Source: Stenomitos frigidus ULC18
GTDB lineage: Bacteria > Cyanobacteriota > Cyanobacteriia > Leptolyngbyales > Leptolyngbyaceae
NCBI RefSeq assembly: GCF_003003795.1
Contig: NZ_PVWK01000153.1
Span: 1-37,717 of the forward strand
Length of the DNA stretch: 37,717 bases
Direction: 5' to 3'
The notes under the pieces were generated by a model. The model was not told where the DNA came from. It ran no database searches and saw only the letters and a program-made list of their open reading frames with translations. A program made the translations under genes and the position numbers. Positions 1,400 through 11,430 of this stretch are shown piece by piece. Position 1 is the first letter of the stretch; the number at the start of each line of letters is the position of its first letter.

Positions 1400-1638
1400 A
1401 TGAAACGCCTTGTTGTCTGCTGTGATGGCACCTGGAATAAACTGGCAAACCCTTGCCCCACCAACGTGGTCAAAATTGCACAGGCGGTGGAGCCGATGGC
1501 CAGTGATGGGGTGCCCATGCAGAACTACACGAGATTGTGAGACAGCGCTGGTGTGGTAGCCCTGACTACCGTCCGAAAAATCTTGCCGCGCATCAAAAAG
1601 ACCTAGATGCTTACTGCCAGTCTTTGAATGGGTCTTGA
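1400..1638 (+). pseudogene. DUF2235 family protein remnant with large internal deletion
   Basis: An ATG at 1400 after AAGGGAG begins MKRLVVCCDGTWNKLANP, the hallmark N-terminus of DUF2235 proteins (alpha/beta-hydrolase-like, related to Tle1-type phospholipase effectors). This frame stops at 1540 after 46 residues. A different frame, open across 1520-1638, encodes a plausible C-terminus of the same family (LHEIVRQRW, then DYRPKNLAAHQ) and ends at TGA 1636-1638. The two ends are joined near 1515-1525 with loss of the whole middle of a normally 300-400-residue protein and a frame change. That is best explained by a deletion. It is very unlikely to be functional. Confidence 0.75.
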
Positions 1639-1683
1639 AGGCGTCTTCTGAAGCTGCCGATCGACGCCTTCAACGGCTCCTCA

Positions 1684-3447
1684 CTACGGGCGCATGAAGA
1701 CGCCCCAGGGAGCAAAGGCATTATCGATACCAGTGTGAGCGGGTGCCAGTTCGGGGTGGTGGCGGCGCAGAACGGTCAACATTGTGTTCTTTTCAATCCA
1801 GTCCAACCCAAATTGAGTGTAGACTTCAGCCCGGTAGTCTTTGGTGAAAAAGCGATCGCTCTTGAGCCGTCGGGACGCCATCAGAATAAACACCCGAAAT
1901 GCCGTATCACTGAAGCCAAAGCCTTCCGGCAAATCTTCTGCATACAAGCCAACCATCAAATCCACACTGTCTACATTATTGTTGTAGACTTCGCGCAGTT
2001 CCTTTGCCCACTGTGGGTTGCTGGTAATCTCCTCAAATGAATTCACGCGGCCACGGCCGAGCAATTCACGAAAGCGGTTGTAACGGGGCACTCCCCGCTC
2101 TCGATCGCGCAAAATATCCACAGCGGCCAGATCAAATGCTTCCCCGTTCTCCTTCACCAGTTGCCGTAGGAAGTGGGGGTAGTTGTGCAGAGTCACGGCT
2201 CCTGGATTCATGATGCCAAACGAGTAGAGCAGATCTGCCATCGGTATGGATTCCATCAGCCCACGAGCCTGTTTGCCGAATAAATCAAACAGCGTGTTCG
2301 TTTGAATCAGTTTGCCAGTCTTAATCGAATGAAATTCATACTCATCGCGCACCAAAGGATGCATCCGATAGACAGAAGTGAATTCTTCAGTCAGGTAGTA
2401 CGGCGCGCTGTGGTGATCCGTGGACGAACCCACAATGCCACTCAGAATTTCGCTGTCGCCAATTCGTCCAAAAATGCGTTTGAAGTCAGGCCCCAGAATG
2501 CCCCACCAATTAGCATGGAGCGAAATCTTAGTGGCAGGGTGGGGCAAAATGGCCGGAGTCCATTCCACCGTATGAATTTTTGCGGTTAGCGCGGCAATAA
2601 TCAGGCGAGCATGGTCAAACAGTTGATCATCCTTCCAGTCTGGGTATTCCCGCTTGAGATGATCGCAAACCACATTGTGTTCTTTGACAAACAGGGTATG
2701 TAGTAATCCCATTGCCAGCCACCAGGTGCCTGGATTGCCCACCCGATCGATGCCCGTTGCCGGATCAACTGGAAGCAACCCATCGTCCCCAAGCTGCATT
2801 TTTCCATCCACATGAGAACGCAGCTCATCAATACGCTCCTGACTGCTGCCGTAAATTTGTGAGGCATCCCACCAATGCGTTTCGTGATTAATAAAGGTCG
2901 CAGGATGCTTTGTATCACCTGTGCGTGTGGGATCATCCAGCGTTTTGTCGATCGCCAGGGGTTGATGATGCTCCTGCTCCCAGGTGTCATCGGCAGGTAG
3001 AGGCACATTGATTTTGTGACCTGGTTGGTTACTGCCATGGCTGAACCAATCGTGCGTTTCAAACTGAATCCAGGCAGCAGCCAACAAATTCAAAATCGTA
3101 GCGGGTTTGAATGCTTCACGTGCCAATAGTTTGCTGCTGACTAGGCGAGGACTTGGTGTGAGCAAGTTTGCCTCATCCACGTTGGCCTCTTCTAAGGGCA
3201 CATTGCGTCCAAACCGGGTGCCCACCATGCCCATTTCTGGATGGTTAAGATCGTTATAGCTGCCATCAGCTGTGCGGGCAGTCAAGTGACGACCATCGGG
3301 GCTGGGAGCAGGTGCTTGGGGCAGTTTCTCTTTCTGCGGTAGCTGTGATGTGTCATGAAGATTCTGATCTCGCAGCACTTGACGAAACTTAAATAATTCG
3401 AGTAGGGCTAGAGGGGTTGGTAGCCGATGCCAGGGCGTTTTAGACAT
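1684..3447 (-). CDS. Cyclooxygenase-like haem dioxygenase (animal haem peroxidase superfamily)
   Basis: This 587-residue protein belongs to the peroxidase-cyclooxygenase superfamily, in the branch with plant alpha-dioxygenase and cyanobacterial linoleate 10S-dioxygenase. Visible landmarks are the distal haem His132 in THDWFSHG, the IHTVEWTPAI helix near 291, and SVYRMHPL near 358, where Tyr360 and His363 match the catalytic Tyr385 and proximal His388 of COX-2 (YHWH). Keeping the tyrosine points to fatty-acid oxygenation rather than simple peroxidation. There is no signal peptide, so it is likely cytosolic or peripheral. ATG 3447 has a GAGG about 10 bases upstream with a HIP1 octamer between them. 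It is divergent from the catalase-like gene at 3854. Substrate and regiospecificity cannot be read from sequence. Confidence 0.85.
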   Translation of the reverse strand: MSKTPWHRLPTPLALLELFKFRQVLRDQNLHDTSQLPQKEKLPQAPAPSPDGRHLTARTADGSYNDLNHPEMGMVGTRFGRNVPLEEANVDEANLLTPSPRLVSSKLLAREAFKPATILNLLAAAWIQFETHDWFSHGSNQPGHKINVPLPADDTWEQEHHQPLAIDKTLDDPTRTGDTKHPATFINHETHWWDASQIYGSSQERIDELRSHVDGKMQLGDDGLLPVDPATGIDRVGNPGTWWLAMGLLHTLFVKEHNVVCDHLKREYPDWKDDQLFDHARLIIAALTAKIHTVEWTPAILPHPATKISLHANWWGILGPDFKRIFGRIGDSEILSGIVGSSTDHHSAPYYLTEEFTSVYRMHPLVRDEYEFHSIKTGKLIQTNTLFDLFGKQARGLMESIPMADLLYSFGIMNPGAVTLHNYPHFLRQLVKENGEAFDLAAVDILRDRERGVPRYNRFRELLGRGRVNSFEEITSNPQWAKELREVYNNNVDSVDLMVGLYAEDLPEGFGFSDTAFRVFILMASRRLKSDRFFTKDYRAEVYTQFGLDWIEKNTMLTVLRRHHPELAPAHTGIDNAFAPWGVFMRP

Positions 3448-3853
3448 TGCGCGATCGCCTCACAAATAATTAGGCAATAAAAAAATTAACACAGCCGTTT
3501 TCTGTTAGCAGCGCCCGTTAAAAGCGCTGGCAGACGCACTCTAGCAAGTTCTGGCGGCAGTAACAGCACCCTTTCGGGTACTATCAGATTTGCAATGAGC
3601 TTTGTAGAATAGCGTGCATGAATAGCCGAGAACAGAACAGAACCGGTTCACATTAGCGCTGAGTTGCCCTAATGCCTTATGCACCTATGCACGAGTTGGT
3701 TGCGCTTCTTTCGCCTCCACTGACTATGACTGGTCGAGAACCGAGCAAGTGGCTTTTCGACGAAATACTACCGTTATCTAACGGGCTGTCGCTCAAGCTT
3801 TGGGCATTTATTAATATTCACTCAATAAAACTTATTGCTAGATTGTAACAACG
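3448..3853. other. Divergent intergenic region with a small hairpin
   Basis: This 406-base gap separates two divergent genes and must hold both promoters. No convincing open frame is present. The only clear structure is a perfect 6-base stem, CAGCGC at 3509-3514 and GCGCTG at 3524-3529. I could not fix a sigma-70 pair with confidence. Confidence 0.5.
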
Positions 3854-4777
3854 ATGCAAAGCTTTGAGAAGATTACACAACCTAAAAGTGGGGACCAGGA
3901 GAACGATTCTCTACCCACTGACTACCCATCCTGGAAGGCTGATGAGAAGCAGAGCTTTCTGTGGCATCAACGCATTTTGCTCTCTCAATACGAGCGATTT
4001 CCTGCCCTTAAAAAGATCGATGTCATTGGTTTATTCCTGACTGTCTTGAACAAAAAGATGGATTGTCTGGCCGATGAAGCGCCACGACATTGGAAAAAAG
4101 CCATTCATGCTCACGCCAGTGTGGCGGAAATTCGATTTGTTCCAGCTGCAGAGACGCCCTTTACAGGCTTATTTAGGGGCGCTGATTATGGGCTCTTACG
4201 GCTGTCCTTGACGGGAAATCCAGCCGATCGCGGTTTTGCACCTGGGCTTGCGGTCAAGTTCTTCCTTGATGGACAACCGTCAGCCAATTTCTCGGCGCTG
4301 GTTTCGCTGGATGGACAAGGTAAAAACTACAACTTTTTTGCTAACGAGTTTTCTAACATCGTCCCTGTTGTCAATCGTCTGGGTCCGAAACTAATCAATC
4401 TAATCTTCAGGCGAGCCTCTCACTTTCCGACCAAGCTTGACCTTCAAAATTTAGGAGTGGTTCGTCAAGATGGGCAGGTAGAAACAACGCCTCACTATCC
4501 CTTACGCCTCTTCTTAGTGCCCAATGACAACGTTCAGTTTGCTGAAACGCCACCCCATGATTTTAGAACGGATCTAGCCACAATCGCGCCGGGAACGTCG
4601 CTGTTTTCAGTCTATGGGGTTGACCCAGCAAACGTTAGCGACGATCGAGTTGATCAACTAGAGGATCGACAAAACGCTCAACTGATGGGCTCGATCGAAA
4701 CAACGTCTGCATTTGTCGCTTCTGACTATGGCGATCGGCGACTGTTCTTTAGGCATCAGCGCTTTCGTAATCAATAA
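3854..4777 (+). CDS. Catalase-like fold protein, candidate hydroperoxide-processing partner of the dioxygenase
   Basis: The 307-residue product aligns by eye with the start of the catalase barrel. IHAHASVAEIRF (84-95) matches the catalase VHAKG...F strand, putting His85 at the distal haem position. It is followed by GLFRGADYGLLRLSLTG and RGFAPGLAVKFF, the equivalents of RFSTV and RGFAVKFY. The C-terminus ends in SDYGDRRLFFRHQ. I find no R-x-x-x-Y haem-ligand motif and the chain is shorter than catalase-related allene oxide synthases (about 370), so haem binding is uncertain. Its divergent position beside the dioxygenase recalls Nostoc punctiforme, where a catalase-related hydroperoxide lyase neighbours a 10S-dioxygenase. 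There is no strong ribosome site before ATG 3854. Confidence 0.75.
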   Translation: MQSFEKITQPKSGDQENDSLPTDYPSWKADEKQSFLWHQRILLSQYERFPALKKIDVIGLFLTVLNKKMDCLADEAPRHWKKAIHAHASVAEIRFVPAAETPFTGLFRGADYGLLRLSLTGNPADRGFAPGLAVKFFLDGQPSANFSALVSLDGQGKNYNFFANEFSNIVPVVNRLGPKLINLIFRRASHFPTKLDLQNLGVVRQDGQVETTPHYPLRLFLVPNDNVQFAETPPHDFRTDLATIAPGTSLFSVYGVDPANVSDDRVDQLEDRQNAQLMGSIETTSAFVASDYGDRRLFFRHQRFRNQ

Positions 4778-4852
4778 ACGTAACGGCTATCAGGAGGCGT
4801 TTGATGCGATCGGATAGGGCTTCTCAAAACCCAACATAACGAGGTGAGTGGA

Positions 4853-5284
4853 ATGACCATTACAACAGCAGACATGACTAAAATGTCTCAGACTGAGCTA
4901 GATGATTTATACAAGAAAAGTCCGATAGGTGCTTTGCCTGATGGGGATAGCCAGGGTACTGCAATGGTGATCCCAGGCTCCTTATTCAGCAAGGTTCTGA
5001 TGCCCTTGATTAAGGGCTTAGCCTGGAGAGGAAAAGTGTTTCATCGTGACTCTGCATACTTGTTCAACAAAGTTTCTCCGTTTGGCATTCAATTAGTGAA
5101 AGCGCAGATCTATAAAGGTGATAGTTGGGTTGATGGCGGAGAAGCCATTGTGTTGGATTATTCCAAAACCTCTTTTGTTGCCCAAAAGATTCGAGACGAA
5201 ATTCGAGAAGTCGCACCAGGTCTTTATCTGGGGCAGGCGTATTGGGGCAAGACGAGAGTTTTGAATTTCATCCTGGAATTCTAA
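4853..5284 (+). CDS. Conserved small protein of the haem-enzyme cluster, function unknown
   Basis: A 143-residue soluble protein without cysteine pairs, membrane segments or a signal peptide. I chose ATG 4853 over the in-frame GTG at 4844 because GAGG at 4841-4844 sits 8 bases before the ATG and would overlap the GTG. A central block reads GDSWVDGGEAIVLDYSKTS (about 90-108), followed by RDEIREVAPGLYLGQAYW (about 114-131). The density of charged and aromatic residues looks like a conserved binding or catalytic surface. I recall similar proteins beside haem peroxidase genes but can name no function. It lies 75 bases after the catalase-like gene on the same strand, so co-transcription is likely. 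Confidence 0.75.
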   Translation: MTITTADMTKMSQTELDDLYKKSPIGALPDGDSQGTAMVIPGSLFSKVLMPLIKGLAWRGKVFHRDSAYLFNKVSPFGIQLVKAQIYKGDSWVDGGEAIVLDYSKTSFVAQKIRDEIREVAPGLYLGQAYWGKTRVLNFILEF

Positions 5285-5340
5285 GCGGAGGTTCGTTAAA
5301 GGATGTTTGAGACGGATAGAAAACCTTGTCACTCTGTTGT

Positions 5341-5381
5341 CATCCCGTCCGTGATTGTGAAAATCACGGGCGGATGGGATG
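5341..5381. repeat. Imperfect hairpin carrying a repeated AATCACGGGCGG motif
   Basis: CATCCCGTCC...GTGATT pairs with AATCACGGGCGGATGGGATG through 6- and 3-base stems with a mismatch, a 4-base bulge and a final 6-base stem around a short GTGAA loop. It starts 57 bases after the preceding stop codon and could end transcription, but it has no T-run. AATCACGGGCGG recurs in a second copy near 5485, which favours a dispersed repeat over a dedicated terminator. Confidence 0.5.
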
Positions 5382-5428
5382 AAACCCGTTGATGGAAGTT
5401 AAAAATTAAATCCAGTCATAGCTGTAGC

Positions 5429-5444
5429 CTCGCTCGCGAGCGAG
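5429..5444. repeat. Perfect 16-base palindrome CTCGCTCGCGAGCGAG
   Basis: The 16 bases are fully self-complementary and are flanked by TAGC on the left and GCTA on the right, extending the dyad with a small bulge. It lies in the 360-base gap between the small conserved gene and the duplicated-domain gene. The form is that of dispersed cyanobacterial palindromes. No open reading frame is credible in this gap. Confidence 0.6.
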
Positions 5445-5644
5445 ACGCTATAAATTATCCAAATGAATCCTTAACTTTCATTCAATCACGGGCGGGTGAC
5501 GCCACGATCGAGGGTGTTTCGAACATCCTCTTAAAAACGGAAGGCTAATGAAACAAGGACGCGATCGGTGATGAGTGCTTTCCCATCATCCCACCGGTTA
5601 ATCAGAGTTCTCATCAAAGTTCTATTAAAACTGAGTTATGGATC

Positions 5645-6955
5645 ATGGCACACCAAGTTCCACTCACTATCATTACTAAGATCAAGCCTGATGGCATGAG
5701 TCAGCTCAAGCAATTGCTAGGGATGATGAGCAAAGAGGTGGAAGCGAACCCGATCGTGCCCTTCGCACGGTTCAGCCAGGTTCATTTTGCCCGCTTCGTG
5801 ATTCTGGAAGAATCTCGCGATCCCAATAACAAGGTGATTCAAGCCAGCCTTGCCTTTTCCAGTGAAATTGATGCGCCGTTAGAAGCGTACTTCAACGATC
5901 TGGTGGATCTTGCAGGGGAGGGTCTGGATGAGATCTACACTCATTGCGTTGGGTATCCAGATCCCGGTGAGCGCACTCGACAGAGCCGTTTAGCCTACCT
6001 TTATGCCCATCAGGTCGAGGTTCAGGCGTTCTATGTCAATACGGTCAATCGGACGGTGCAGCAAGTGCAGCAAGAAGCAAAACTGCGTGAGCAGGTCGAA
6101 ACGTTTGCCGATCAACAACAGGCAAAGCAGGCGTGGTTAGGATGGGATGGCATTAAGGTGCGTCAGGCAATCCAAGCGTTTGTCAAAGATGAGCGATCGC
6201 TCCATTGGGCGTTGGCTCCAGCCTCGTCACCCAGTCTGTCACGACGGCTTGGGGAAACCATCCATTTCCTTTCAGGACTGCTGCTCATCCTGGTGCTGGG
6301 CTTAGCCTTTCTGCCGTTCGCTCCTCTTTACGCAGCCATTCTGCGCTTCAAGGAAACACGGGATGCCCAGCAGGATCGGCTCCGGCTCAGTGGTAAAGAA
6401 CGGGATGAACTGGCGATTCGAGAAGACCATGCGGTGCAAAATCAGTTCAGTGCAGTGGGGTTGATCAAACCGGGTCTCTTTCGCCTTGCGACCGTCAGAG
6501 TGCTGCTGTGGCTCGTTAATTTCACGGCGCGTCATGTTTTCAATCATGGCAACCTTGCCGGGGTGCCCTTACTCAATCTGGATGGCGTAGACACCATTCA
6601 TTTCGCGCGCTGGATCATCATTGATGAAGGACGGCGCGTGTTGTTTCTGAGTAACTATGACGGCAGCTTGGAAAGCTACATGAATGACTTTATTAACAAG
6701 GTTGCCTGGGGGCTGAATGCCGTCTTTAGCAACGGAGTTGGGTATCCCAAGACGCGGTGGTTGGTGTTGGATGGCGCGAAAGATGAACAGGCATTCAAGG
6801 CGTTTCTCCGGCAGCGTCAGATTGTGACCCAGGTTTGGTATACGGCTTATCCACAACTGACAGCGGTCAATTTGGAAAACAATGCCGCGATACGTGCCGG
6901 ACTGAGCCAACCCTTGAACCAAACCGAAACAGACGCGTGGCTGCGTCGCTTGTAA
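5645..6955 (+). CDS. Membrane-anchored protein with an internally duplicated alpha/beta domain, function unknown
   Basis: 436 residues in three parts. Residues 1-150 form a soluble domain with QVHFARFVILEE near 45 and ending ...CVGYP at 101-105. One hydrophobic stretch, about 206-234 (GLLLILVLGLAFLPFAPLY), looks like a single transmembrane helix. Residues 270-436 repeat the first domain, with TIHFARWIIIDEG near 317 and ...NGVGYP at 363-368. The shared HFAR...VGYP frame and the strand/helix rhythm suggest a tandem ferredoxin-like or dimeric alpha/beta-barrel arrangement, the fold also used by DyP peroxidases and chlorite dismutases. I see no haem-ligand motif. It precedes the DyP gene by 59 bases and is probably co-transcribed with it. 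A role as membrane docking or accessory factor for the haem enzymes is inference. Confidence 0.75.
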   Translation: MAHQVPLTIITKIKPDGMSQLKQLLGMMSKEVEANPIVPFARFSQVHFARFVILEESRDPNNKVIQASLAFSSEIDAPLEAYFNDLVDLAGEGLDEIYTHCVGYPDPGERTRQSRLAYLYAHQVEVQAFYVNTVNRTVQQVQQEAKLREQVETFADQQQAKQAWLGWDGIKVRQAIQAFVKDERSLHWALAPASSPSLSRRLGETIHFLSGLLLILVLGLAFLPFAPLYAAILRFKETRDAQQDRLRLSGKERDELAIREDHAVQNQFSAVGLIKPGLFRLATVRVLLWLVNFTARHVFNHGNLAGVPLLNLDGVDTIHFARWIIIDEGRRVLFLSNYDGSLESYMNDFINKVAWGLNAVFSNGVGYPKTRWLVLDGAKDEQAFKAFLRQRQIVTQVWYTAYPQLTAVNLENNAAIRAGLSQPLNQTETDAWLRRL

Positions 6956-7014
6956 GCCATTGATCGACAAACAACGTGCGCGATCGTCCGACTCTCATTC
7001 TTTAGGAACACTGC

Positions 7015-8460
7015 ATGATGTCCACCCTCGAACTCCAAGATATTCAAGGCATTATCATTCGGGGCTACTCTAACCTGGATGCGGCTTGTTTTGTGTTGTT
7101 GGGCATTCAGGACGCGGCAGCAGCCCGACGCTGGCTCGGTACGCTGACTGATCGCATCCAAAATGGTCAGGATCATCCGTCCGAAACCTGCCTGAATCTT
7201 GCCTTTACCTATGATGGTTTGAGCGCGTTGGGACTGGATCAAGCCATGCTGGATACTTTTCCAACAGAGTTTCGGGAAGGGATGACGCCACCTTACAAAA
7301 GCCGCGTGCTGGGCGATCATGGAGACAATGCACCCGCTGTGTGGGATTGGGGCGGCACCCACTCGCCATCCATCCACATCTTGCTGCTGCTGTATGCCAC
7401 GGATGATGCGAGGCTTATGACCTTCTATGAAGCTTTTGCAGAAGCCTTCGCCAGCAATGGCGTGACGCTGATCCGCAGATTAGACACCTTCACATTGAAA
7501 GATGAGCACGGCGGCTTTCGGGAGCACTTCGGGTTTCGAGACGCGATCGGGCAACCCATTGTGGAGGGACTCAGCAAAACGGGATCACCCGACAACACGA
7601 TCAAAGCGGGCGAATTTATTCTGGGCTATCCCAATGAGTATGGCTTGTTGACAGAAACCCCCACCGTCAGCGCCCAACACGATCGGCAGAACCTTCTACC
7701 AGAGGGGCAAAACGGCTTTGGAGGGCATGATCTGGGGCGCAACGGGAGCTATGTCGTGTTCAGACAATTGAGCCAAAAGGTACAGGCCTTCTGGCAATTT
7801 TTGGAGGGTGCGACTCAACACGCCGATGGCACCAGTGATCCGGATGCTCGCGTGCGGTTGGCCTCCAAGCTTGTGGGACGTTGGCCCAGCGGGACGCCCT
7901 TAGTGAAAGCGCCGGATCACGATCGCCCAGACAGCGGCGATAAAGATGAGTTTGCCTACCATGATGCTGATCCTCATGGCTTCAAATGTCCGATGGGTGC
8001 CCATATTCGACGCTCCAACCCGCGCGACTCGCTTGCCCCCCAACCCGGCACGCCAAAATCGATCGCGGTGAACAAAACCCATCGACTGTTGCGGCGCGGT
8101 CGCACCTATGGAACGCCTTTGACCGACTCGTTAAAGCCCCAGGACCTGTTGCAAACGGAGGACTCTGGCGAGAGAGGACTGCACTTCATTTGTGTGAGCG
8201 CAAATATCGCCCGTCAGTTTGAGTTTGTTCAGCAGACCTGGATGAACAGCCCCAAATTCAACGGGCTTTATAGCGATACCGATCCGCTGGTGGGCGATCG
8301 TGCTCCCGGTGATGCCGGAGCCGCTACCCATTTCACCGAACAGGCTCAACCCCTTAGAAAACGTGTGACGGGTCTTCCCAACTTTGTTGTAGTGCGTGGA
8401 GGGGCTTACTTTTTCTTGCCGAGTATCCGAGCCTGTCGGTATCTCGCATCCCTTGCCTGA
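7015..8460 (+). CDS. DyP-type haem peroxidase
   Basis: DyP peroxidases use hydrogen peroxide to oxidise dyes, phenols and other substrates. The 481-residue length fits the long class that includes the Anabaena enzyme. The proximal haem ligand is His330 in CPMGAHIRRSNPRD. The distal arginine lies in THRLLRRGRTYG (Arg360 or Arg361). The distal GXXDG motif reads GFRDA (173-177): the catalytic Asp176 is kept and the last glycine is alanine. There is no signal peptide, so it is cytosolic unless docked to the upstream membrane protein. AGGA at 7004-7007 sits 7 bases before the ATG; a second ATG follows immediately. Family assignment is firm; the substrate is unknown. Confidence 0.9.
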   Translation: MMSTLELQDIQGIIIRGYSNLDAACFVLLGIQDAAAARRWLGTLTDRIQNGQDHPSETCLNLAFTYDGLSALGLDQAMLDTFPTEFREGMTPPYKSRVLGDHGDNAPAVWDWGGTHSPSIHILLLLYATDDARLMTFYEAFAEAFASNGVTLIRRLDTFTLKDEHGGFREHFGFRDAIGQPIVEGLSKTGSPDNTIKAGEFILGYPNEYGLLTETPTVSAQHDRQNLLPEGQNGFGGHDLGRNGSYVVFRQLSQKVQAFWQFLEGATQHADGTSDPDARVRLASKLVGRWPSGTPLVKAPDHDRPDSGDKDEFAYHDADPHGFKCPMGAHIRRSNPRDSLAPQPGTPKSIAVNKTHRLLRRGRTYGTPLTDSLKPQDLLQTEDSGERGLHFICVSANIARQFEFVQQTWMNSPKFNGLYSDTDPLVGDRAPGDAGAATHFTEQAQPLRKRVTGLPNFVVVRGGAYFFLPSIRACRYLASLA

Positions 8461-8673
8461 GGTTTCCTTTCTCTTGACGCTGTGCCATCGCAAAAACGGC
8501 GTCGCTGAATCTGGGGATGATTTGTGCATTCCTGCCTCGGCTGTAAGGGCGTTATAGCCAAGGCACACAAGAAACGCGAAACGCCCCGACGAAATTCATC
8601 GCTCAAATCAGCAACGCCCCAAACGCTCATGCCTCACCATGCCCATGTCATTCTCCTTTGAAGCCTTTCAGCC

Positions 8674-9900
8674 ATGAACTCAAATACCAGTCGTCCGGTG
8701 CCACCTGCCAATACTGGCTCCGCTTTTTTGAATTGGGTTAGCAATACAGCCACCTTCCTGTTGCAGATGGAACGCCGGATTGATCCCTGTTTCCGACCCG
8801 CGTTCGATGCCGTCCTGCGAGATCCGATCGCGAGCCTGACCACGGCGCTGATCAATATGAAGCGCCCCGACGAAGGCTTGAAAATTGCTGAGGAAAAGCC
8901 GCTGCCGGATGAAGAGGCGTACCTCGACTCTATTATCACCACCTTTGAACAGCAGATGCGTGGACTCTGGAAACCTGGAGGCTTTGAGCGGGGTGGCAAC
9001 ACAAAAACGCAGGGCATTGTGCGTGGCGAGTTTATTGTTCATGACGATATCCCAGCAGCGTTCCGGCACGGCATCTTCGCTCAGCCACAGACGTTCCGTG
9101 CCTGGGTGCGGTTTTCTGGTCCCGGCCCCTACGTCACACCAGATATCGACGATGTGGGTTTTATGAGCATCAGCATCAAGTTGATGGGTGTGCCTGGCCC
9201 GAAGTTGATGGATGAGGAGCAGTTCACGCAAGACATGTTCGGTGTTTCCACACCAACCTTCGTCACACCGGACACCAAGGCAAATGCGCAGTTGCAGATT
9301 GAAAGCCTGAAAAACGCGCAACTCTTTTATTTCGTCAACCTCGATCGCCCCCACATCCTGGATCTGATCATGCAGTCGCTGTGGATCAAGACACAGAGCA
9401 GTCCGTTTGAAGCGCCCTACTTTAGCTGCGTTCCCTACCTATTGGGAGAGGGGCAGGCAATGCAATATTCAGTATGGCCAACAACAACGAAACGGACGCC
9501 CATTCCACGGCTGCCTTGTCGTCCTCCTGATGACTATCTGCGCGATGCGATGGTTGCTACGCTGGCTGAAGAAGCTGTGGAGTTTGACATTCGCCTGCAG
9601 CTGCAAACCGATCCACATCGGATGCCGATCGAAAACAATGCTGTGCTCTGGCCTGAGAAGCTGTCGCCTCGCGTTTCGGTAGCAACGCTACGCCTCCCTC
9701 AACAGACATTCGACTCGCCAGCGCAAATGGAGTTTGCCAAACGTCTCTCCTACAATCCGTGGCACTGCCTTCCCGAACATCGACCGCTGGGCAATCAAAG
9801 CCGTGCTCGACAACGGATGTATGCGGAACTTTCGAAGCTGCGGCAGACGATGAACGCTGTGCCTCACTACGAACCAACGGGAGACGAGGTCTTTGAGTAA
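8674..9900 (+). CDS. Catalase family protein (y4iL-like catalase-related haem protein)
   Basis: This 408-residue protein has the catalase-like core of the y4iL group: GIVRGEFIVHDDIP (114-127), TFRAWVRFSGPGP (140-152), ISIKLMGVPG (166-175), and the late segment VSVATLRLPQQTFDSP followed by NPWHCLPEHRPLGN. The proximal haem motif R-x-x-x-Y is present as R379-Q-R-M-Y383. At the distal site, where catalases have His in HAKG, the sequence reads RGGNTKTQG, so Asn109 appears to stand in place of His; this depends on a by-eye alignment. Such proteins often act on organic hydroperoxides rather than disproportionating peroxide. It is the last gene of the rightward block, 213 bases after the DyP gene. 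Confidence 0.82.
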   Translation: MNSNTSRPVPPANTGSAFLNWVSNTATFLLQMERRIDPCFRPAFDAVLRDPIASLTTALINMKRPDEGLKIAEEKPLPDEEAYLDSIITTFEQQMRGLWKPGGFERGGNTKTQGIVRGEFIVHDDIPAAFRHGIFAQPQTFRAWVRFSGPGPYVTPDIDDVGFMSISIKLMGVPGPKLMDEEQFTQDMFGVSTPTFVTPDTKANAQLQIESLKNAQLFYFVNLDRPHILDLIMQSLWIKTQSSPFEAPYFSCVPYLLGEGQAMQYSVWPTTTKRTPIPRLPCRPPDDYLRDAMVATLAEEAVEFDIRLQLQTDPHRMPIENNAVLWPEKLSPRVSVATLRLPQQTFDSPAQMEFAKRLSYNPWHCLPEHRPLGNQSRARQRMYAELSKLRQTMNAVPHYEPTGDEVFE

Positions 9901-10100
9901 GCGGTTCGCAGAGTCATGCAGCGGCATCGTAGGTGATGCGATCGGTGTCAGAATCATCGATGAGCAAAGCTGTCTGAGTGGTTGGCATCTGGCTTTTGGG
10001 TTCAAGGCTAGTTAAAAGCCGCGATCGTCCAAAGCCGCGATGGTTAGCTTGATTGCGCTACACAACACAGCAATGACGCTGAATGAGCTGTAACGACAGC

Positions 10101-10487
10101 CTAAGCGGATAGTCGTACATCTTCACTGATCAAGGCTTGGGCGACTTCAGGCGCAATAGAAAGCCATTGAGGGTTCGTCGCTTTGCCGTGCTGCCACTCA
10201 AACACGACCTGGCTAAAAGCAGCCAAGCTGAACTCTCGATAGTCTGAGGCGTAGTGCTCAATCCAGACTAATTTGGCAGGATTGAGATGAAACTCTTGCA
10301 CAATCTGATCGACCAGCTTTTCAATCACGAAGGGATTAAACCAACCGATCTCAAACCCCATGTCAGTGATCAGGACGGTGTGTACTTTGGTACGCGCCTG
10401 AAAAATGCGGAGATGACATTGCAGTAGCCAGGTACCAGAGACTTGACTGGGCATTTGACATGAGTAGGGCTGATCGATGATTTTCAT
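10101..10487 (-). CDS. Conserved hypothetical protein (128 aa)
   Basis: I chose ATG 10487 because the longer frame would start at a TTG with a poor leader. The protein begins MKIIDQPYSCQ and contains HTVLITDMGFEIGWFNPFV and KLVWIEHYASDYREF, and ends near FEWQHGKATNPQW. It is soluble, with no signal peptide and only a single cysteine (in PYSCQM). I recognise the pattern as a conserved cyanobacterial hypothetical, often seen beside small zinc-ribbon and receiver genes, but no function is known to me. It follows the zinc-ribbon gene on the same strand by about 80 bases. Confidence 0.7.
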   Translation of the reverse strand: MKIIDQPYSCQMPSQVSGTWLLQCHLRIFQARTKVHTVLITDMGFEIGWFNPFVIEKLVDQIVQEFHLNPAKLVWIEHYASDYREFSLAAFSQVVFEWQHGKATNPQWLSIAPEVAQALISEDVRLSA

Positions 10488-10952: not shown

Positions 10953-11327
10953 TTACCAACCCATGGCCTGAGCAATTTGCTGAACGAGATCGATCGGCTG
11001 AAAGGGCTTCAAAATGGTGAGTACGATGCCCAATTTGGGAAAGAGCTGTGGGTTGGGGAGGTAGCTGTTCGCCGTAAGTAACACAACCGGGATGGGCTGT
11101 GTTGTCGGATCAGAGCGGAGGTATTGCAGGAAGGCAAACCCATCCATCTCTGGCATCATCACATCCAGCACGATCGCATCGGGTTGATCAGCTTGAGCTT
11201 GCTCTAAGGCTTCACGCCCTGAGGCAGCGGTTAACACGTCCCAACCACCCAGCCGTTGTAGACAGAGCGCCACGACTTCCCGAATGCTGGCTTCGTCATC
11301 TACGACTAAAATTCGCTTGGTGGCCAC
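10953..11327 (-). CDS. Single-domain response regulator (receiver only)
   Basis: A CheY-like receiver of 124 residues that accepts a phosphoryl group from a histidine kinase or Hpt domain and has no output domain. It shows KRILVVDDE (acidic pair), the phospho-acceptor Asp in AIVLDVMMPEMDG, the switch Thr in VVLLTAN and the Lys in LKPF. I placed the start at GTG 11327 rather than ATG 11357: GGGGGTG lies 8 bases before the GTG, and the product then aligns residue for residue with its paralogue at 12308-12685 (VATKRIL against MTTKRIL). The upstream ATG has AGGTT only about 2 bases away. The beta4-alpha4 region has diverged from the paralogue, so partners may differ. Confidence 0.85.
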   Translation of the reverse strand: MATKRILVVDDEASIREVVALCLQRLGGWDVLTAASGREALEQAQADQPDAIVLDVMMPEMDGFAFLQYLRSDPTTQPIPVVLLTANSYLPNPQLFPKLGIVLTILKPFQPIDLVQQIAQAMGW

Positions 11328-11430
11328 TTCAAGCACCCCCAGCGTATGCGGTGGCATAACCTGATATGAACAGAGTATTTTTCACTCGCCTGACCGTTGC
11401 CATGAAGAACTGACTTACTGCAGTTTCAGC

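Follow-up and report, generated by a model that had tools for sequence, protein, structure and literature searches.

A DUP-DyP gene pair with exchangeable haem oxygenase neighbours: a possible modular system for peroxidative lipid oxidation in Stenomitos frigidus ULC18

Contig NZ_PVWK01000153.1 of the cyanobacterium Stenomitos frigidus ULC18 (assembly GCF_003003795.1; positions 1 to 37,717, forward strand, the whole stretch being called the window here; contig C52 of genome G000) carries six genes grouped around a duplicated-domain membrane protein (DUP) and a DyP-type haem peroxidase (DyP). Gene neighbourhoods show DUP and DyP as a constant core across bacteria, often with a small protein (SML) and a catalase-related protein (CAT2), next to one exchangeable haem oxygenase. 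At a probability of about 0.5, we take the locus to be one variant of a modular set of haem enzymes that oxidises lipids peroxidatively; it seems close to certain that DUP and DyP work as a unit, together with SML and CAT2 in the loci that have them. The six genes and the spacer before DUP are as follows.

1684..3447, minus strand: putative haem alpha-dioxygenase (alpha-DOX; the cyclooxygenase [COX]-like gene), 587 amino acids (aa), matching PF03098 and rice alpha-DOX 4kvj
3854..4777, plus strand: CAT1, 307 aa, catalase resemblance by eye only, no Pfam, NCBIfam, or relevant PDB match
4844..5284, plus strand: SML, 146 aa, putative calycin-like beta-barrel (predicted fold against 4mve), candidate lipid carrier by guess
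5285..5644, no strand: SML-DUP spacer, 360 bp, with short inverted and direct repeats and without a clear promoter or terminator
5645..6955, plus strand: DUP, 436 aa, predicted tandem ferredoxin-like domains (dimeric alpha/beta barrel type) with a hydrophobic helix between the halves
7015..8460, plus strand: DyP-type haem peroxidase, 481 aa, matching TIGR01413 and 8re3, with D176, H330, and R360
8674..9900, plus strand: CAT2, 408 aa, putative catalase fold, Asn109 in place of the distal His, R-x-x-x-Y proximal motif

All six genes are real. Five open reading frames (ORFs) lie on the plus strand (3854-9900), and the dioxygenase is encoded on the minus strand, about 400 bp away and in divergent orientation. 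Pfam searches of the six proteins matched the dioxygenase and, weakly, DyP; NCBIfam matched DyP. A preliminary description of the window had placed a six-gene block at 3854-9900, made up of a COX-like dioxygenase, two catalase-like proteins, a DyP peroxidase, a conserved small protein, and a membrane protein with similar halves. It was sound except for the coordinates, the dioxygenase gene falling outside that span and on the opposite strand, and for CAT1.

A search of species genomes for DUP gave 292 relatives, of which the best 80 loci by similarity to the window's DUP were kept. Plasmid and genome matches brought the set to 92, and removal of repeats (L001-L005, equal to the window, L012, L018, L013, and L021) left 87 distinct loci; frequencies therefore lean toward relatives of the window's DUP, and many loci are contigs of metagenome-assembled genomes that end near the block. 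Neighbours were scored by profile searches (the six families plus profiles built from neighbour clusters) with a 6-kb cut, which omits a COX-like fragment of L037 and also the alpha-DOX of L016, a gene about 5 kb after DyP that ends outside this distance. Inter-gene distances were measured between profile matches, not gene ends. Alignments used 40 of 48 SML matches, 36 of 49 for CAT2, 80 of 86 for DyP, and 63 (tree) or 59 (structure, invariants) DUP rows.

In all 86 loci that could be scored, fused cases among them, DyP follows just downstream of DUP on the same strand, with 12-193 bp between the profile matches; the remaining locus (L054) stops within DUP, and the DyP of L072 is cut by the locus end. 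The 87 loci come from about a dozen phyla: Cyanobacteria, Chloroflexi, Actinobacteria (including mycobacteria), alpha-, beta-, and gammaproteobacteria, Myxococcota and other former Deltaproteobacteria, Acidobacteria, Bacteroidota, Gemmatimonadetes, Nitrospira, Planctomycetota, and Armatimonadetes. Within 6 kb of DUP, SML was found in 49/87 loci and CAT2 in 44/87. Where SML lies upstream (48 loci), it ends no more than 250 bp before DUP in 44; the window (373 bp) is outside the 44. The clustering thus recurs in unrelated genomes, strongly for DUP-DyP and well for SML and CAT2. Several species carry neighbours as fusions or single open frames: P450-DUP-DyP (L007, L008), DUP-DyP (L010, partly L011), DUP-DyP-CAT2 (L086), and SML-DUP (L035). 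The P450-DUP-DyP polypeptides (L007:5814-10145 and L008:5790-10652; 1443 and 1620 aa) are encoded on Novosphingobium and Sulfitobacter plasmids.

Three types of oxygenase gene occur within 6 kb of DUP: alpha-DOX/An_peroxidase in 27/87 loci (SML in 26 of these, CAT2 in 21), RoxA-like in 14 (SML in 14, CAT2 in 11), and cytochrome P450 in 15, where both SML and CAT2 are absent. The alpha-DOX group of 27 takes in L023 (26% identical to the window's enzyme, with different flanking motifs and aligned key residues) and seven longer proteins that are 34-36% identical to the window's. SML accompanies 40 of the 41 loci with alpha-DOX or RoxA-like genes versus 9 of the 46 others (Fisher p 7e-15), and the absences from the 15 P450 loci give p 6e-7 (SML) and 6e-6 (CAT2); the rows are related, and all three p-values are too small. 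Well-supported branches of the DUP tree force at least 7 gains or losses of alpha-DOX, 4 of RoxA, and 5 of P450, counts that are partly inflated by early-ending contigs scored as losses ("none"); L037 is labelled alpha-DOX on this tree. The exchange reaches a close relative of the window's DUP: L017 (DUP 80% identical to the window's; next nearest by tree path after L012) has a divergent RoxA-like gene instead of alpha-DOX, whereas the closer L012 (84%) and L018 (83%) have alpha-DOX. GMC oxidoreductase, alpha/beta hydrolase, and patatin genes also lie near DUP loci.

The exact gene set of the window was found in four of the 87 loci (the window, L012, L018, and L020; the sequence of L021 stops short of where CAT2 could be seen), and a fixed six-gene assembly was rejected. 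The preliminary description had favoured a membrane-docked assembly that makes and processes organic hydroperoxides, and the proteins identified agree with the hydroperoxide idea, but the set is modular. It had also held that freely varying neighbours would speak against such a system. They vary in part: the oxygenase is exchanged, CAT1 was seen in only a few cyanobacteria, alpha-DOX and CAT1 occur without DUP-DyP in L118 and L119, and SML does so in the cyanobacteria L115 and L117, while DUP-DyP stays constant. We regard the earlier interpretation as right in spirit and partly supported, and restate it in modular terms, with DUP-DyP as the core and the oxygenase as a part that can be interchanged.

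Alpha-dioxygenases oxygenate free fatty acids with O2 at C2, giving a 2(R)-hydroperoxide and then CO2 and an aldehyde one carbon shorter. The COX-like gene of the window does encode a haem dioxygenase (PF03098, E 1.5e-114), and homology and active-site residues assign it to the fatty-acid alpha-dioxygenases. In a PDB search, the best solved relatives were the alpha-dioxygenases of rice (4kvj; E 5e-121, residues 4-582) and Arabidopsis (E 9.5e-116); lactoperoxidase came next at 8.7e-28, and no prostaglandin synthase did better than 5e-15. Alignment to 4kvj shows that the catalytic Tyr and the proximal and distal haem His are kept (window Y360, H363, and H132; rice Y379, H382, and H157), as are the residues that position the carboxylate and alpha-carbon (window H292, T297, and R527; rice H311, T316, and R559), with roles as given in the text available of PMC8720084. 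The COX-like alignment had 33 rows, 28 from DUP loci and 5 from cyanobacterial stretches without an intact DUP; substrate and catalytic residues are conserved in all 32 evaluable rows (L037 is partial). Arg stands at the distal-His position in 10 of the 33 rows, nine actinobacterial and one from Ktedonobacter (L028, L030-L032, L035, L041, L067, L088, L089, and L019). The window enzyme resembles characterized alpha-dioxygenases (rice, Arabidopsis, LepDOX, CalDOX, and CsDOX) over its full length and in its catalytic and carboxylate-binding residues, and the cyanobacterial LepDOX and CalDOX take C10-C14 acids (PMC8720084). Those enzymes were studied singly, with no mention of an operon, neighbours, or catalase in the portion of that paper available, whereas the window enzyme stands in a gene block.

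Nine of 11 RoxA-like frames have two CXXCH motifs 210-250 residues apart (the other two are cut short). The di-haem cytochrome c peroxidase model NF040606 matched 10/10 of the proteins and RoxC/RoxB 3/10, by E-value, with one member at 36 bits against a cut-off of 150. The di-haem group includes the Pseudomonas aeruginosa fatty-acid 10S-dioxygenase and rubber oxygenase RoxA, according to the available part of PMC4496055. The likeness of these loci to the P. aeruginosa oleate 10S-dioxygenase/diol synthase and RoxA lies in the swapped-in partner (CXXCH pair, NF040606); that partner is not in the window and is below the curated cut-off in the member scored.

The two halves of DUP are one duplicated domain, as the preliminary description had proposed for its membrane protein: they match each other at E 2e-16 by BLASTP and at E 6e-31 by hhalign. 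A single hydrophobic stretch (residues 208-226) lies between them. An AF2 model (pLDDT 94.2, pTM 0.92) predicts two ferredoxin-like domains and a 41-residue helix. It matched WhiE-ORFI 9lmn (VIA; Z 14.5, root-mean-square deviation [rmsd] 4.0, 226 aligned) and AbxO 9ltx (Z 12.0), tandem ABM/SchA-like proteins that share two tandem ferredoxin-like domains with DUP but are polyketide proteins by title (AbxO a polyketide decarboxylase) and are 9-12% identical to it; the Foldseek superposition on WhiE-ORFI was loose (TM 0.37, rmsd 8.7). The match of both halves to a single tandem chain makes it probable that they lie together on one membrane face, and the helix may dock the protein and not split its halves across the membrane. 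H47, D76, and H319 are invariant in 59/59 DUP rows. The window DUP had no Pfam or NCBIfam match, and the matches listed for DUP profile A1 in the PDB search contained no WhiE-ORFI/SchA-like chain; a weak PDB sequence match to CSC1/ERD4 (E 0.0045) was taken as chance. The structure matches listed for DUP included no DyP or chlorite dismutase, and this was not used as evidence.

The identification of DyP stands: it belongs to TIGR01413 (102.3 bits, just over the cut-off of 100.5), its nearest solved chain is 8re3 (E 3.5e-59), and D176, H330, and R360, presumably the catalytic residues, are conserved in 80/80 aligned DyPs. It shares family and conserved Asp, His, and Arg with DyP-type peroxidases, and differs in having a constant neighbour or fusion partner, DUP.

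Catalases and coral allene oxide synthase have a distal His and a proximal R-x-x-x-Y motif. CAT2 alone gave no Pfam match and no PDB match at E<=10, and its catalase-like nature is supported through the kinship of its family: in alignment A4, 9/41 rows match Pfam catalase (5 of the 41 rows being CAT1), and the A4 profile matches the catalase-fold chain 3e4w (E 4.8e-12), which we take to be MAP2744c, and coral allene oxide synthase 1u5u (E 4.2e-9). The proximal R-x-x-x-Y motif, with its Tyr, is present in 36/36 CAT2 rows. The column aligned with the distal His of 3e4w and 1u5u holds Asn in 26 of the 36 rows (Asn109 in the window) and Gln or His in 5 each, which argues against an ordinary catalase; a catalase fold without this His would not be expected to dismutate H2O2. 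The second protein described as catalase-like, CAT1, is not demonstrably a catalase: it has catalase-like motifs by eye, and hhalign against CAT2 gave 0.1% probability (7 rows only). Among 386 cyanobacterial genomes searched, CAT1 was seen in few (3 strong and 2 weak matches). Two cyanobacterial stretches (L118:3314-11223 and L119:4286-11296) carry alpha-dioxygenase, CAT1, GMC oxidoreductase, and patatin genes, in this order, on one strand with no DUP-DyP nearby (Pfam scans covered both patatins and the GMC protein of L118), possibly a self-contained operon for fatty-acid alpha-oxidation.

The AF2 model of SML (residues 7-146; pLDDT 84.8, pTM 0.81) suggests a barrel that we presume to be calycin-like; its sole match well above background was Tcur_1030 4mve (Z 14.0, rmsd 2.4, 127 aligned). 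The SML sequence had no significant PDB match, and the window SML had no Pfam or NCBIfam match. A role as lipid carrier is a guess from the predicted fold and gene company. In L117, SML stands directly beside a RoxA-like gene 42% identical to that of L047. On plasmids, SML gave a single weak Nocardia match.

The proposed system would begin with the interchangeable haem oxygenase, which in the window would be the alpha-dioxygenase forming a fatty-acid 2(R)-hydroperoxide or shorter aldehyde. SML may carry lipid, and CAT2, its distal His lost, may rearrange or cleave the lipid hydroperoxide. DUP would use its hydrophobic helix to sit on the membrane, where it would hold DyP, as suggested by the species in which both are one polypeptide; the pair would be the common docking and peroxidase unit, DyP spending peroxide to oxidise the product or to keep the haem enzymes balanced. 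The main argument for the handling of oxygenated lipids is that two of the three exchangeable partners belong to groups with proven fatty-acid or polyisoprene dioxygenases. More tentatively, DUP-DyP might be a phylum-crossing, membrane-docked peroxidase "socket" for three unrelated haem oxygenases, serving general bacterial oxylipin signalling or processing.

Several observations weigh against a modular lipid-oxidation system. A recognised oxygenase is absent within 6 kb in 31/87 loci (SML in 9, CAT2 in 12), although some of these contigs end, and L037 combines a RoxA-like gene with the COX-like fragment beyond the cut, two oxygenase types in one locus. RoxA-like proteins have an N-terminal signal or membrane helix by eye, which DyP and alpha-DOX do not, making a single physical assembly doubtful for the RoxA form. 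The window's dioxygenase gene points away from the other five, and 360 bp separate SML from DUP. Distribution in cyanobacteria is patchy: full-length DUP occurs in 5/144 relatives and in 2 of 386 genomes chosen to cover the phylum, where four further matches were partial (G333, G380, and G479 among them), SML in 4 of the 386 strongly and 1 weakly, and alpha-DOX in 6. About 3 Mb lie between alpha-DOX and SML in G442, and G388 has a broken DUP-DyP remnant (L120:8028-9297; G388:C19) with alpha-dioxygenase and CAT1 on another contig. The SML fold compares with fatty-acid-binding proteins and lipocalins at background level (Z about 6.5), and the literature search found no paper on the function of Tcur_1030.

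Some oxygenase-free loci also bear on what the core does. Neighbours reminiscent of bacterial conflict systems were seen beside DUP-DyP in L079, L087, L091, L010, L056, L065, L077, and L084. The frames of kinase-AAA proteins stop some 20-30 bp short of the DUP match in the myxobacterial L079, L087, and L091 (NACHT also in L079 and L087); CHAT occurs in L010, and nSTAND1 in L077 beside a patatin-family ORF. A Pfam scan of 51 of the 78 neighbour ORFs of such loci, covering the 25 commonest families, gave TIR_2 in 3 and SIR2_2 in 3. By PADLOC, the L079 kinase matches mad6 (1.3e-59) and PD-T4-6 kinases, although kinase matches may be generic, and the L056 TIR protein matches PDC-S66 (3.4e-8) and ThsB. 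These neighbours also tell against the lipid reading, in that the core may serve oxidation in general and not be dedicated to lipids. That the core is the oxidative output of regulated, immune-like signalling or conflict systems, with lipid clusters as one use, is nevertheless improbable: the six window proteins and the Rhizobium DUP-DyP fusion gave no PADLOC match (E<=0.001), the ten Pfam-scanned window proteins have no TIR, SIR2, CHAT, or STAND domains, and the available parts of conflict-system surveys do not mention peroxidase, DyP, catalase, or P450. A known anti-phage defence system was rejected on the PADLOC result for the six window proteins.

Peroxide or aldehyde defence, in which DUP-DyP and CAT2 would detoxify H2O2 or organic hydroperoxide by-products of the nearby oxygenase and make no specific product, suits a core that is indifferent to oxygenase type and keeps its DyP residues. 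It is unlikely, given that the distal His is absent from CAT2 in 31/36 rows, odd for a detoxifying catalase, and that SML and CAT2 follow dioxygenase-type partners and are missing with P450. Brash reportedly described, in 2014, a linoleate 10S-dioxygenase (10S-DOX) and a catalase-related hydroperoxide lyase from Nostoc punctiforme. Very little probability attaches to the locus being a member of this cyanobacterial oxylipin pair, even though the same two superfamilies adjoin in the window. Among the solved chains compared, the window enzyme is far closer to plant alpha-DOX (E 5e-121) than to prostaglandin synthases (5e-15), and it keeps the three alpha-DOX substrate residues, which disfavours the 10S-DOX pathway. 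The portions available of PMC13049297 and PMC9579011 report, likewise, a COX-superfamily dioxygenase with a separate catalase-related lyase in Nostoc, but describe 10S-DOX as nearer COX than fungal dioxygenases, apparently another dioxygenase class, and do not refer to any gene like DUP, DyP, or SML. That unrelated haem genes came to lie together by chance is barely conceivable for the block as a whole: CAT1 and the dioxygenase do vary between relatives, but the unbroken DUP-DyP adjacency, the fusions, and the recurrence of SML and CAT2 across phyla refute it for DUP-DyP and make it very unlikely for SML and CAT2, and it could hold for CAT1 only. Chance clustering was rejected for DUP, DyP, SML, and CAT2 by the neighbourhood counts.

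A literature search covering part of the journals found no description of the gene set, including in the text available of PMC11719350, PMC13049297, PMC9579011, PMC8720084, PMC8195603, PMC7159879, and PMC4496055, and the DUP-DyP pair is apparently undescribed. The preliminary description knew of no pathway with this set; the pairing of a COX-family dioxygenase with a catalase-related protein is already known from the Nostoc papers (PMC13049297, PMC9579011; seen in part). What is known so far of lipid peroxidation in bacteria concerns enzymes that act singly or in pairs. If the modular lipid-oxidation system exists, a conserved core with exchangeable oxygenases in about a dozen phyla would give orphan enzymes a common context, define two families (DUP and SML) whose window members match neither Pfam nor NCBIfam, and make the cellular role of bacterial alpha-dioxygenases directly testable.

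The promoter and terminator scan of 1400-10200 was uninformative (promoter-like 9 versus 6.3 in shuffled sequence; terminator-like 10 versus 8.9), and no RNA families or tRNAs were found at the window. Short inverted and direct repeats AATCACGGGCGG lie at 5340-5500, inside the SML-DUP spacer. A response regulator is encoded at 10953-11357 (Pfam; ten window proteins scanned). In L125:2012-3436 (G015:C96, equal to L013), DyP runs across three reading frames, possibly through decay or assembly error. The genome of the window has a second, diverged DUP-DyP pair (G000:C152, L124:480-4558; DUP 33% identical); the catalase-like gene beside it is divergent too but keeps the distal His.

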